Of a DNA stretch of 51,452 nt, positions 15,068-19,999 are shown piece after piece; within the stretch, counting starts at the first letter, position 1, and every line of letters starts with the position of its first letter. Source of the DNA: a virus; the IMG/VR virus record IMGVR_UViG_3300016461_000015, positions 1-51,452 of that record; one strand, given 5' to 3'. Position numbers and translations under genes: made by a program. The notes below the pieces were generated by a model. It worked only from the letters and a program-made list of their open reading frames with translations. It did no database searches and was not told the origin of the DNA.

Positions 15068-15435
15068 TGCCCAACGCACCCGATTTCCTTCCAGAATACT
15101 GGTATCTGCCGGTCGGTGGCGGCTACGTTCCGGCCTATCGATTGTTTACTGGCAAGCAGCTTCATATTGTTCCGGGCAATCAGCCAATGGCGACTGCTGG
15201 ACAAGCCATGGCTGTGGCCAGGGAATATGTCAGGCAGCGTCTCAACTCGCCTGTACAGGCCTGCACGGTCGAGCCGGAGGCAGAACTCGATGAAATCGAA
15301 CGATGGCGCCGCAAGAAGGCCGATGAAGCCGCCGCGGAAAAGGCCAAGGTGTTCGGCTCTGCACCAATGACGCCGCGCAATGCCAGCGGATCGACTGTAG
15401 CCGTCGAATACAGGAACCGGAGGGCACGGGCATGA
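15067..15435 (+). CDS. Hypothetical protein (122 aa)
   Basis: Starts on the last base of the helicase stop codon. N-terminus is aromatic-rich (LPEYWYLPVGGGYVPAYR), the C-terminal half basic and helical (DEIERWRRKKADEAAAEKA). No family is recognised. Position directly after the helicase suggests a replication-associated role, which is inference only. Confidence 0.55.
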   Translation: MPNAPDFLPEYWYLPVGGGYVPAYRLFTGKQLHIVPGNQPMATAGQAMAVAREYVRQRLNSPVQACTVEPEAELDEIERWRRKKADEAAAEKAKVFGSAPMTPRNASGSTVAVEYRNRRARA

Positions 15436-15833
15436 CGATCCACCCACGTATTCCCCCTATCGACCTCGACACCGCAAGCCGTGACCGCCTCATAGGCCAC
15501 ATCGATGCGTTGGAGGATATTCTCCAAACCCTTCTCCCCGCCGAAAGCGATAGCGAGCTCTCCAAATTGAGAGCACTCGGGCTGACACGGACACAAGCGC
15601 GGATGCTCGCCTGTCTGACCAATGGCAGAACCCAGTCCCGCCAGCAGCTCAGGACTGCCAGCCGGCAATGGGGTGACGAGTACGAGACTAAATCGGTCGA
15701 TGTCATCATCCATCACATTCGCAAGAAGCTACACCACCACGGCATCGAAATAAGGAACGATTGGGGAACCGGGTTCTATATGGAGCCGGCAAGCATCACC
15801 AAGATGCAGGCTATTCTGGCGGAGGAAGGATGA
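15432..15833 (+). CDS. Winged-helix protein, OmpR/PhoB effector-like
   Basis: 133 residues, 4-bp overlap with the previous gene. The C-terminal half resembles the transcriptional-regulator C-terminal winged helix: LTRTQARMLACLTNG, then KSVDVIIHHIRKKL as recognition helix and GTGFYMEP as the terminal hairpin. The N-terminus has a short helix but no receiver domain. Probably a DNA-binding regulator of middle or late genes. Confidence 0.7.
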   Translation: MTIHPRIPPIDLDTASRDRLIGHIDALEDILQTLLPAESDSELSKLRALGLTRTQARMLACLTNGRTQSRQQLRTASRQWGDEYETKSVDVIIHHIRKKLHHHGIEIRNDWGTGFYMEPASITKMQAILAEEG

Positions 15834-16389: not shown

Positions 16390-16625
16390 CCAACGTTGTT
16401 ACCCTGCATGGCGATAAGCGCTGGAAGGCTGTGATCGAGTACCGACATGAGAACGGTCCGATCAACATCGAGCACCACTTCGAGGAGATAACTGATCTCC
16501 ACAACATCATCGAGCATGGGCCCGACTGGAACACGCTCATCAAGTGCACTGTCACTCTCGTTCGAAACGATGGGGGTGAGGTTCAGGACGCCAAAGCAAT
16601 GGAGAGGCAGAATGCACATCGGTGA
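16386..16625 (+). CDS. Hypothetical protein (79 aa)
   Basis: Four-base overlap with the previous gene. A beta-rich start (TNVVTLHGDKRWKAVIEYRH) is followed by a helix containing LHNIIEHGPDWNTL. It resembles small proteins often found next to DUF6362 genes in rhizobial phages, as I recall. Its last 14 bp overlap the DUF6362 gene. Confidence 0.6.
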   Translation: MTNVVTLHGDKRWKAVIEYRHENGPINIEHHFEEITDLHNIIEHGPDWNTLIKCTVTLVRNDGGEVQDAKAMERQNAHR

Positions 16626-17268
16626 AATTGCAGAGGCCTTTATCCGTGCTGCCGAGATCGAGCGGTTGGCTCCTGGTCACATTGGGCCAGCACTGCCCCA
16701 CTCCCTCGCACTGCCCTACGTGCACGACTTCGCTGACAAGGCGGGCTGGGGCACCAAGAGGCTTGAGGAGGAACGGCAGGCTTTTTGGGACAGGCTCGGG
16801 CGCATGCCGTCCGCCGCGGAACTGACTTCGCTCGAAGCGATATTCGACTGGCTTCGTTCGACCGACAATGATGGTGAGCGCCGTGCACTGCTGGCGTGGG
16901 CTCGCGCAAAGGCAGGTGGCAAGTCCTTTCGGCGATGGTGCTTTAAGGTGGAAGGCATCCATCCCGAGACCGGTCGACGCCGTAAAGACCGCGCGTTGGC
17001 GAAAATTCAGGCCAAGGTTAGCGGCAGGACCATGCAGCATGACGATAACCGGGAAATCCGGGTGTTGCTAAGTGGCGCCGAAATCAGCGATGTTTCCGAT
17101 ACGATCGCGGAAGATGCGGGCAAACGAGACAACCTCAATTCATGGCTGGCAGATGATGCCTTCGCACCGTTCATGAGTAACGAGCCGCAGGCCGCGTTCT
17201 CATGGGCGAAGAAGCGGAATGAGCAGCGTCGGCAGCGCGAGGCGAGGCGCCAGAAGCAGGCGGCTTAG
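16612..17268 (+). CDS. DUF6362 family protein
   Basis: 218 residues from ATG 16612, preceded by GGAGAGG. The central region matches DUF6362: SLEAIFDWLRSTDNDGERR, then LLAWARAKAGGKSFRRW. The family looks like an HTH-type DNA-binding protein and is frequent upstream of phage terminase genes. The C-terminus is highly basic (QRRQREARRQKQ). A role in late regulation or packaging is inferred from position. Confidence 0.7.
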   Translation: MHIGEIAEAFIRAAEIERLAPGHIGPALPHSLALPYVHDFADKAGWGTKRLEEERQAFWDRLGRMPSAAELTSLEAIFDWLRSTDNDGERRALLAWARAKAGGKSFRRWCFKVEGIHPETGRRRKDRALAKIQAKVSGRTMQHDDNREIRVLLSGAEISDVSDTIAEDAGKRDNLNSWLADDAFAPFMSNEPQAAFSWAKKRNEQRRQREARRQKQAA

Positions 17269-17469
17269 AGAGAACATCCGCCAAAGAGCGGAGAACGTTG
17301 ATACGACTGGTTTATGCGATTGCCTCGCTGCAACGGGGCCATCACGAAAGTAGAGTTTCCGCGTTACGCGCTTCCGACAGTGCGCGGTCATAGATTCTCG
17401 GAGCGTGCTGGCAGAGTGGTCGCTGTGGTGGCGATCTAGATGCCAGACGGGACACGAAACCGGTCAGTA
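17269..17469 (+). other. Structured non-coding region upstream of the split tRNA
   Basis: No gene is visible. A short hairpin TCCGC/GCGGA follows the stop codon at 17268. At 17429-17445 TGGCG pairs with TGCCA around a 7-nt loop, and at 17446-17465 GACGG pairs with CCGGTC. The decamer AGTTTCCGCG (17354-17363) and the octamer TACGCGCT (17365-17372) recur downstream (17564-17573 and 17592-17599). GGCAGAG occurs at 17410, 17470 and 17580. The region may be the 3' part of a permuted intron or part of a packaging site. Confidence 0.5.
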
Positions 17470-17548
17470 GGCAGAGGTCGCGGGTTCGAGCCCCGCAGGC
17501 GGTGCTAGAGATAGACGTGGCCTTAGCTCAGTCGGATAGAGCGCTGCC
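17470..17548 (+). tRNA. Candidate circularly permuted tRNA gene
   Basis: The 3' half comes first. Bases 17470-17474 (GGCAG) act as positions 39-43, AGGTC as a canonical variable loop, and 17480-17496 as a perfect T-arm (GCGGG, TTCGAGC, CCCGC). The acceptor strand AGGCGGT and base G follow. After 12 bases comes the 5' half: acceptor GTGGCCT (17517-17523), TA, then a perfect D-arm (GCTC/GAGC). Its last five bases, CTGCC (17544-17548), pair fully with GGCAG. The acceptor stem is imperfect (four Watson-Crick pairs, one mismatch, two wobbles). The anticodon is not resolved; joining at flanking G-TCAGTA would give U33 and CAG. Confidence 0.55.
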
Positions 17549-17791
17549 GAATACCGGCCCGGAAGTTTCCGCGATAGTGGGCAGAGTTGGGTACGCGCTA
17601 TACCTTCGCGAAAGTCTCACTGAGCAAAAGGTGAACTGCGCGGTTGGCGAGAGGGTGAGACTACCTCGCTGGCCCATTCAATCGGAAGTGCCGTCTTAGG
17701 ACGGGTGCCACAAAGCAGGATGCAAGGTTCTGACTTCCGGTTCATTCGCCGTCCATGACGGCAACGAGGTGCGAGGCGGTGCGGGATGCAG
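17549..17791 (+). ncRNA. Structured RNA downstream of the split tRNA
   Basis: Dense secondary structure without a reading frame. TTTC(c)GCG (17566-17573) can pair with CGCGAAA, enclosing ATAGTG/CGCTAT. AGTCTCAC (17613-17620) pairs with GTGAGACT (17655-17662). CCGTC/GACGG closes a TTAG loop at 17691-17704, and AATCGGAAGT (17680-17689) nearly pairs with ACTTCCGGTT (17733-17742). A GCCGTC/GACGGC hairpin surrounds 17755. GACTA at 17659 and TAGTC at 17793 could form a P7-like pairing. Possibly the 5' part of a permuted self-splicing intron, or a packaging site before the terminase genes. Confidence 0.4.
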
Positions 17792-18025
17792 TTAGTCCCG
17801 GCTCCATTCGACATTGGAGTGTTCAAGTGCCGCTTGACCTTCCGAATGGCCGTAGAATGTTGAGTCTGTCGTTGTCCGTTCTCGGATGATGACTTCCTTC
17901 GACGATGAGAACGGCTCGACTTGGGTCAACCGATTGAAGGCGGCATTGATATTGGTAGCCCAGACTGTCCACGGGTAGGACATATCGCCATCCGCAAAGT
18001 GAAACCGCGCGATAAAGAATTTCAT
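17792..18025 (-). CDS. Hypothetical small protein, divergent from terminase (77 aa)
   Basis: ATG at 18025 has a GGGAGG ribosome site 4-5 nt upstream, much better than the further upstream start of the open frame. The product (MKFFIARFHFADGDMSYPW...) is acidic, with a beta-like N-terminus and no known family. Its ATG overlaps the terminase small-subunit ATG on the other strand (CATG), so each gene's ribosome site lies in the other's coding sequence. Confidence 0.6.
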   Translation of the reverse strand: MKFFIARFHFADGDMSYPWTVWATNINAAFNRLTQVEPFSSSKEVIIRERTTTDSTFYGHSEGQAALEHSNVEWSRD

Positions 18026-18569
18026 GTCAGTCCTCCCAAACCCTAGGCATGAGAGCTTCGCCCAAGCGCTGGCAAAGGGCAAGACGGCGGATGAAGCGTA
18101 TATCCTGGCTGGGTTCAAAGCCAACCGTGGCAACGCCACGCGATTGAAAGCAAATGAAAGCATTGCGGCTCGCGTCGATGAACTGGTCGGTAGAGGTGCT
18201 GATAGGGCTGAGGTGACGGTCGCTCGTGTCCTTCAAGAGCTTTCACGTCTCGGTTTTTCCGACATAAGGCAGGCGTTCGACGAACAGGGAAACCTCCTAC
18301 AGCCTGATCAGTGGAGCGATGCTTTCGCTGCTTCGGTCTCTTCGCTCGAGGTTGTGACCAGGACGCTGCCCGGCTGCGGTGACGATGAGGCCGCCAAGGT
18401 CGAGTACGTCCACAAGATCAAGATCTGGGACAAGAACAGTGCCCTGGAGAAGATCGCCAAGCACCTCGGTATGTTCGTCGACCGCATCGAGCATTCCGGC
18501 CCCTACGGCGGCCCGATCCAGACAGAGAACCGGACATGGCGCGAGGTGCTGCGCAGCGAGAAGAGTTAG
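18024..18569 (+). CDS. terS: Terminase small subunit
   Basis: 181 residues. It opens SVLPNPRHESFAQALAKGKTADEAY, the typical helix-turn-helix start of Terminase_2-type small subunits, followed by a basic helix with ARVDELVGRGADRAEVT. It recognises the packaging start on phage DNA and recruits the large subunit. The large subunit overlaps its 3' end by 34 bp. The weak ribosome site before ATG 18024 lies within the divergent gene. Confidence 0.85.
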   Translation: MSVLPNPRHESFAQALAKGKTADEAYILAGFKANRGNATRLKANESIAARVDELVGRGADRAEVTVARVLQELSRLGFSDIRQAFDEQGNLLQPDQWSDAFAASVSSLEVVTRTLPGCGDDEAAKVEYVHKIKIWDKNSALEKIAKHLGMFVDRIEHSGPYGGPIQTENRTWREVLRSEKS

Positions 18570-19999
18570 GTTCCACCACTCACCTCACGAACCCGGCCCT
18601 CTATGACTTTTGGGAACAGGTCTTCCTCGGCGATGCCGATATCGCTGTTCTCCACGGTGGCCGGTCTAGTTCGAAGACAAGGGACACGGCCTGCCAACTG
18701 GTCAGGCTCGTCAATCATGTCCCAAACCGGATGCGCGTGCTGTGCATCCGGCGATTTCAAAACCGCATTCAGGAATCGGTCTACACCGAACTGAAGTGGG
18801 CCATAAACCATCTCGGTCTGGCAGATGCATTCGACATCCAGAAGACGACGATCATTCATCGCGCCACTGGGTCCGAGTTCATCTTCTACGGCATCGAGCG
18901 CAACCTTGAGGACATCAAGGGCACGTCCGACATCGACATCCTTTGGGTGGAAGAGGCGGAGAAGCTGACGGAGGAGCAATGGGTCGTTATCGCGCCGACG
19001 ATCCGCAAGGAAGACAGCCTCGCGATCTTGCTGTTCAACCCGAAGTTCGTCACCGACTACGTCTGGAAGAACTTCGTAGTCGTTGAACAACCTCACTCAG
19101 TTGTGAGGAAGATCGACTGGACCGAAAATCCGTTCCTCTCCGCCAAGGCCAAGCGCGACATCGCGGCGATGCAGGAGAGGAGCCCGGAGCTATTCGAGCA
19201 CGTCTATGGCGGCGTGCCACTGGGGGATAGCGAGCTTTCGATCTTCAAGCGGCGCTGGCTTGATGCCTGCGTCGATGCGCATCTCGTCCTGAACCTCACG
19301 CTGACCGGCCGCAACATCGTCGGCTTCGATCCCGCTGACGACGGCGAGGACAAGAGCGCCACGGCTGACAAGATCGATGGTGTGTTCGTCGATGCCGAAG
19401 ATTGGTCATCTGGCAAGGATGAGTTGGTTCAGAACGCAAAGAAGGTCTGGGCCAAGGCGAAGCTGGTCGGTGCCACGGTCTCCTATGACACGATTGGTGT
19501 CGGTGCCTTCGTCGGCGGCTACATCGACGAGCAGAACCGCGAAAATCAGGCCAAGGTGCAGCACTACGCTTTCCATGCCGGTGGTGCCGTCGAAGATCCT
19601 GACAAGCCGAGCGACCCATATAACCGGCAAAGCCCGCTGAACAAGGACGAGTATCTGAACCGTAAGGCACAGGCCTGGGCCAATACGGCTCGACGCGCCA
19701 TGCTGACCTTCAACGCCGTGACGCGCGGCCACGCCATCAAGCCCGAGGACGTCCTGTCGTTCTCGTCTGGCATGGGCCCGAAGAAGCTCGACGCGCTGTT
19801 CACCGAGCTCTGCGTGCCTTGGTGGGTGGAGACCGAGGGCAAGAAGCGCGTCGTGCCGAAAGTGAAGCTCAAGAAGGACTTGGGCGTGAAGTCTCACAAC
19901 CTGGCTGATGCAGTGATCGCTGCTGACAACTCGCACGCCAAGCGCCTGATGAACATCAATGCTGCAGCCGTGGCGCAAACCGCAATGCCTGGAGCCTGA
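18536..19999 (+). CDS. terL: Terminase large subunit
   Basis: 487 residues, PBSX/Terminase_3-like. The ATPase has a Walker A-like GGRSSSKT at residues 41-48 and a Walker B ILWVEEAE near 137. The nuclease half has FDPADDG near 267 and an acidic LADAVIAAD near the end (about residue 463). It pumps DNA into proheads and cuts concatemers. The start lies within the small-subunit gene. Confidence 0.92.
   Translation: MARGAAQREELGSTTHLTNPALYDFWEQVFLGDADIAVLHGGRSSSKTRDTACQLVRLVNHVPNRMRVLCIRRFQNRIQESVYTELKWAINHLGLADAFDIQKTTIIHRATGSEFIFYGIERNLEDIKGTSDIDILWVEEAEKLTEEQWVVIAPTIRKEDSLAILLFNPKFVTDYVWKNFVVVEQPHSVVRKIDWTENPFLSAKAKRDIAAMQERSPELFEHVYGGVPLGDSELSIFKRRWLDACVDAHLVLNLTLTGRNIVGFDPADDGEDKSATADKIDGVFVDAEDWSSGKDELVQNAKKVWAKAKLVGATVSYDTIGVGAFVGGYIDEQNRENQAKVQHYAFHAGGAVEDPDKPSDPYNRQSPLNKDEYLNRKAQAWANTARRAMLTFNAVTRGHAIKPEDVLSFSSGMGPKKLDALFTELCVPWWVETEGKKRVVPKVKLKKDLGVKSHNLADAVIAADNSHAKRLMNINAAAVAQTAMPGA

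Follow-up and report, generated by a model that had tools for sequence, protein, structure and literature searches.

A structured RNA lies upstream of the terminase genes in the phage DNA analyzed here (a virus record 51,452 bases long, called the window below), and it probably represents a new RNA family carried by phages of alphaproteobacteria, the permuted cloverleaf of the window being its apical domain there. Judging from comparison of related sequences, we give this reading a probability of about 80%. Comparison shows the core to be a pseudoknotted, loop-E-containing RNA of about 150 nt, in every case oriented toward the terminase genes where these are visible.

Location, relatives and core fold

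The RNA sits within a gene-poor stretch between the gene at 16516-17268 and the terS/terL genes. The features of this region are as follows.

16516-17268, + strand: upstream gene (phrog_37864/phrog_6836, weak DUF6362), preceding the RNA
About 17356-17561, + strand: structured RNA, intergenic, upstream of terS/terL
17359-17387, + strand: helix P1 of the 5' pseudoknot, CCGCG (17359-17363) with CGCGG (17383-17387)
17369-17405, + strand: helix P2, interleaved with P1, CGCT(T)CCGA (17369-17377) with TCGGAGCG (17398-17405)
17408-17446, + strand: hairpin P3, CTGGCA (17408-17413) with TGCCAG (17441-17446); inner stem GGTCGC (17418-17423) with GCGATC (17431-17436)
17448-17561, + strand: helix P4, CGGG (17448-17451) with CCCG (17558-17561); 5'-side bulge ACACGAAA (17452-17459)
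17460-17557, + strand: helix P5, CCGG (17460-17463) with CCGG (17554-17557), followed by the loop-E-type loop UCAGUA (17464-17469)/GAAUA (17549-17553)
17470-17548, + strand: helix P6, GGCAG (17470-17474) with CTGCC (17544-17548), closing the tRNA-like apex where a tRNA has its anticodon stem
17475-17496, + strand: tRNA-like variable loop AGGTC (17475-17479) and T-arm GCGGG-TTCGAGC-CCCGC (17480-17496)
17497-17523, + strand: 'acceptor' arm, AGGC (17497-17500) with GCCT (17520-17523), 19-nt loop, no CCA
17524-17543, + strand: TA (17524-17525, tRNA positions 8-9), D-arm GCTC-AGTCGGATA-GAGC (17526-17542) and G26
17614-17675, + strand: second structured element, GTCTCAC...GTGAGAC interleaved with GCGAG...CTCGC
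17744-17767, + strand: small hairpin, ATTCGCC...GGCAACGA
18024-18569, + strand: terS (Terminase_2), downstream of the RNA
18536-19999, + strand: terL (Terminase_3), downstream of the RNA

A distant BLAST search returned a single phage, Pam5 (L001), with 73% identity over 17367-17560; the likeness begins about 100 bases before the tRNA-like part, and the segment is unannotated in Pam5. Relatives were found by short patterns taken from the window and Pam5 and by a covariance model for which 22 of the matches were used, giving about 33 relatives (33 rows with 32 different cores, plus the isolate RHph_N3_2); model matches of 21-25 bits in five genomes (L278-L282) were left out of membership. A looser pattern combining loop E, T-loop and D-arm was discarded in favor of core-specific ones, the matches listed being ordinary tandem tRNAs. 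The hosts are mainly Rhizobiaceae, with the RNA in phages and prophages, and other alphaproteobacteria, including one Roseovarius bin, and the cultivated phages that carry the RNA are the isolates Pam5 and RHph_N3_2. The covariance model gave a strong match in about 1% of Rhizobiaceae genomes (4/396), and 1 of 298 genomes matched in the family of the Roseovarius bin. Two of 80 loci whose terL is closely related have the RNA (L060 and L061), so it moves independently of the terminase; with the window included it is present in only 3 of 81 such phages and is therefore dispensable, which counts against the leader function proposed below. At gathering thresholds no Rfam family, GOLLD and ROOL included, matched in the window; in 16 relatives compared with the same cutoffs only tRNA and one abiF RNA were detected, both away from the element, and L249 had no Rfam match even at E 1.

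In the alignment, a 5' H-type pseudoknot formed by the interleaved helices P1 and P2 is followed by the hairpin P3 and the long helix P4-P5-P6. Two-sided changes were observed at 20 of the 29 pairs, and 86.5% of the cells were paired; the covariation score was 0.326 versus 0.139 in shuffled alignments (0/500) and at most 0.109 when slid. When cognate 5' and 3' strands were compared with strands exchanged between sequences (5000 permutations), the exchange lowered pairing in P1, P2 and P4 (0/5000 each), in P3b (3/5000) and, over the whole family, in GGCAG/CTGCC of P6 (13/5000). The covarying pairs in homologues that the preliminary description had proposed as a check were thus found. P1 reads CCAAGG/CCTTGG in L237 and CCGTG/CACGG in L234, and P2 changes on both sides at 5/8 pairs, for example to CGGA/TCCG in L226 and GCTGCGA/TCGCAGC in L235. 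Such changes also occur at the two outer pairs and at 3/3 counted inner pairs of P3, and at 3/3 counted pairs of P4, the conserved bulge of the long helix ending in CGAAA. P5 is paired in 100% of the cells, with exchanges CG/UA/GC and GC/AU, and the loop-E-type internal loop (AGUA/GAA) is conserved in relatives with and without the cloverleaf. With covarying pairs kept among diverged homologues, the element is a structured noncoding RNA.

As for the neighboring genes, terL stands on the same strand 0.36-3.8 kb downstream of the RNA in 17/17 members with a detectable terL, and the RNA also precedes the terminase genes in Pam5 and RHph_N3_2. The terminases downstream belong to several families. 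In L249 and RHph_N3_2 the RNA is separated from the terminase by an antitoxin-like gene on the minus strand, which counts against a leader function. Homologues of the gene at 16516-17268 stand before the RNA in L244, L250, L228 and L248. A possible late regulator is encoded at 15432-15833 of the window, by a phage gene whose product has a winged helix of the OmpR/PhoB type (Trans_reg_C).

Two further elements follow the RNA. The one at 17614-17675, apparently another H-type pseudoknot with the pattern GTCTCACTGAGC...GAGAGGGTGAGA.TACCTC, is common to the window, L249 (1221-1300), L290 (8381-8426) and L291, is enclosed by TCGGGAAGGC/GCCTTCCCGA in the last three, and occurs with and without the main RNA; in L249 a compensatory change from GCGAG/CTCGC to GGGAG/CTCCC was seen by eye. 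The small hairpin at 17744-17767 was present, in the loci examined, only beside members of the RNA family. Its flanks are constant (ATTCG NNN..NNN CAACGAG), and it recurs behind the RNA in L235 (1039), L247, L248 (1282), L253 and L293 (about 3174), placed as if joining a row of structured RNA cassettes.

The tRNA-like tip

The preliminary description had recognized in 17470-17548 a 3' tRNA half preceding a 5' half, and all the pieces that it quoted, upstream and downstream, were located where it had placed them; the CCGG tetrads, which it suspected of lengthening the helix, form P5 behind the conserved internal loop. The variable loop and T-arm match YrlA and tRNA, and the T-stem covaries in Pam5, L210 and L259. 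In the window and these three relatives the T-arm, variable loop and D-arm are accompanied by the elbow bases A14, G15, G18, G19, A21, C48, C56 and A58, whereas the D-loop is short in L228 and L230, which do have the cloverleaf arms. Six cores carry the cloverleaf (the window, L001, L210, L259, L230 and L228). Their T-stems are paired throughout (30/30 pairs standard), with changes on both sides at 3/5 pairs, and the cloverleaf is therefore not due to chance. Folding by minimum free energy gave it no support in the window or in L001: the minimum for the window apex (-41.7 kcal/mol) corresponds to another pairing, the cloverleaf reaching -32.9 kcal/mol, with a z-score of only -0.5. The case for the cloverleaf therefore rests on comparison rather than on energy.

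Most relatives have a plain hairpin after P6, and two small hairpins replace the tip in L203 and L205, the six cloverleaf cores being scattered over the core tree. Because the cloverleaf label needs five changes on this tree (whose support is modest), and because the core nearest to that of the window (L249, 84%) has a plain-hairpin tip, the tip behaves as an exchangeable module. By these comparisons, some alphaproteobacterial phages have had the tip swapped for a domain that resembles the tRNA corner, or elbow. The mimic looks permuted because the long helix of the RNA replaces the anticodon stem and the acceptor arm is closed as a hairpin, so that no tRNA would be made.

Possible function

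We tentatively read the RNA as a cis-acting leader of the late transcript, which would carry the packaging and structural genes. It is untranslated and lies on the same strand as, and upstream of, the late genes. Within the untranslated leader it would act on its own transcript, most likely by allowing transcription to proceed or by governing how the transcript is processed, and the tRNA-like tip might recruit a protein that recognizes tRNA elbows. A fuller version, according to which this late-operon leader is a processive antitermination or processing element whose swappable tip repeatedly gained a mimic of the tRNA elbow, placing the packaging genes under the control of a host protein that binds tRNA, appears rather doubtful as a whole.

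NusG-like antiterminator genes precede the RNA in L234, L060, L061 and L233; the one in L234, a Shinella granuli prophage (phrog_25909, PF02357), ends 360 nt before the RNA. As a possible antitermination partner, such a gene is present in a minority of the members; most lack it, which counts against the leader reading. NusG-like genes were also found in 9 of 40 phage records with related terL, which had not been picked for the RNA, and the one in L042 was placed at the equivalent position, about 2.3 kb ahead of terL.

It is also quite possible that the element is a discrete phage RNA acting in trans, comparable to GOLLD or ROOL, on host proteins or ribosomes, the tip serving as a decoy or docking site. 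This alternative agrees with the leader reading on the identity of the RNA and differs from it in mechanism. In Pam5, a strong intrinsic terminator (CCCCAGCC-CTCACC-GGCTGGGG-TTTTT, positions 1700-1727) lies within 10 nt behind the RNA, which also fits a discrete small RNA. Across the family, intrinsic terminators show no enrichment behind the RNA (7 on the sense strand versus 4.3 expected), and this counts against the leader and the trans-acting reading alike. That unrelated phages retain so elaborate a fold favors a trans-acting RNA; the constant co-orientation with the terminase genes speaks against one. Several members have tRNA genes beside the RNA, as has been reported for GOLLD and ROOL (PMC12286853). 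Nevertheless, tRNAs also occur around terL in 32 of 78 relatives that lack this RNA, which points to tRNA proximity as a property of the slot. In these loci, among the terL relatives L002-L081, the tRNA genes lie upstream of terL and mostly have a CAT anticodon.

Alternative readings of the tip and known systems

Bacterial Y RNAs (YrlA) are characterized by binding of Ro60 and PNPase and by modification by TruB and DusA. In a permissive Rfam scan YrlA (RF02553) was the best match of the window (17459-17566; 31.5 bits, E 8e-5) and of L259 (E 1e-4), with an equal order of arms, and the tRNA-like domain is closed by the RNA's own terminal stem. The four YrlA matches, however, scored 31.5, 25.3, 22.6 and 29.9 bits, all under the gathering cutoff of 69, the match covers just the generic tRNA portion, the outer helix is a different one, and most relatives lack any tRNA-like part. 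No TROVE/Ro60 gene was found in six phage records (some of them fragments) or in eight RNA-carrying host genomes, the cloverleaf-bearing Roseovarius included. Y RNAs in phages are on record (PMC12282133), but it is very improbable that the element is a phage member of this family binding Ro60/Rsr; the tip resembles a Y-RNA tip in shape.

The preliminary description had called the locus a circularly permuted tRNA gene. The permuted cloverleaf is real and kept in several phages, whereas the reading as a tRNA gene failed on four tested points, and a transcript that is cut, circularized and opened into a tRNA is highly unlikely. ARAGORN, which found no ordinary tRNA gene in the window, does call a tRNA after rotation of the two halves and insertion of a 7-nt loop between them, and likewise with the de-permuted halves of L210; those of L001, L259 and L230 gave no call. 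The splicing endonuclease that algae and archaea employ is not known from bacteria. The length of the spacer between the halves falls among those of known permuted genes (1-74; PMC3978253) but is not conserved (27, 25, 19, 10 and 12 nt across cloverleaf members). Read as a 7-bp acceptor it pairs at 6/7 positions in the window and at 4/7 in L001 and L210, and the arm is better described as a capped hairpin of variable size, with a GAAA tetraloop in L210 and a total of 10-12 nt in L230 and L259, leaving no room there for a 7-bp acceptor and a free end. No CCA is encoded, and there is no anticodon loop, positions 32-38 being replaced by the family-wide loop-E motif. In known permuted tRNAs the junction, most commonly at 37/38 in the green algae, is a bulge-helix-bulge with 3-nt bulges around a 4-bp helix; these tRNAs have a complete anticodon loop, and the splicing machinery performs their circularization (PMC3978253). 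The junction in the phage RNA is of another kind, with a 6x5 internal loop on one side of the 4-bp P5 and an 8x0 bulge on the other. Moreover, the outer helices, internal loop and 5' domain are also found in relatives with a plain hairpin only, the family being mostly without a tRNA part.

That the tip is a functionless leftover of two tandem tRNA genes (the 3' half of one and the 5' half of the next) is scarcely credible, since GGCAG/CTGCC and the outer helices pair and covary family-wide and the T-stem pairs are kept by compensation, although a broken tandem pair gives this order naturally, relatives often have tRNA genes in this slot, and such a pair may be the origin of the mimic. In alphaproteobacteria tmRNA is a two-piece, permuted molecule; it was rejected as a candidate because the sole match was one of 8.2 bits to the T-arm and a D-stem is present.

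The element would add to phage genomes a previously unlisted, strongly covarying RNA family, two members of which sit in cultivated phages, and tRNA mimicry of the Y-RNA type would extend outside the Ro60 system. The plain hairpin and the tRNA mimic on one scaffold offer a natural comparison for the purpose of the mimic.

Processive antitermination leaders such as HK022 put and lambda nut/qut are structured RNAs at the start of a phage operon, and the phage RNA is like them in being a structured RNA at an operon start, sometimes beside an antiterminator gene; its fold is far more elaborate, and it is likened to them by position and structure, not by sequence. With GOLLD and ROOL (PMC12286853) it shares the character of an elaborate pseudoknotted phage RNA near tRNA genes, but it has no Rfam match at the gathering cutoffs, its core is about 150 nt whereas many GOLLD RNAs exceed 800 nt, and its tRNA part is a permuted mimic, while GOLLD sometimes contains tRNAs (PMC12286853). 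Like YrlA (RF02553; PMC8394870), it has D, T and capped acceptor arms and a 5'-3' stem of its own in place of the anticodon arm; unlike YrlA, it has a 5' pseudoknot, the P3 hairpin and loop E, occurs without Ro60, and lacks the tip in most members. Finally, it resembles the permuted tRNA genes of algae and Thermofilum (PMC3978253) in that the 3' half comes before the 5' half with a short piece between, but without their bulge-helix-bulge, anticodon, CCA and constant acceptor stem, the halves here being part of a larger RNA.
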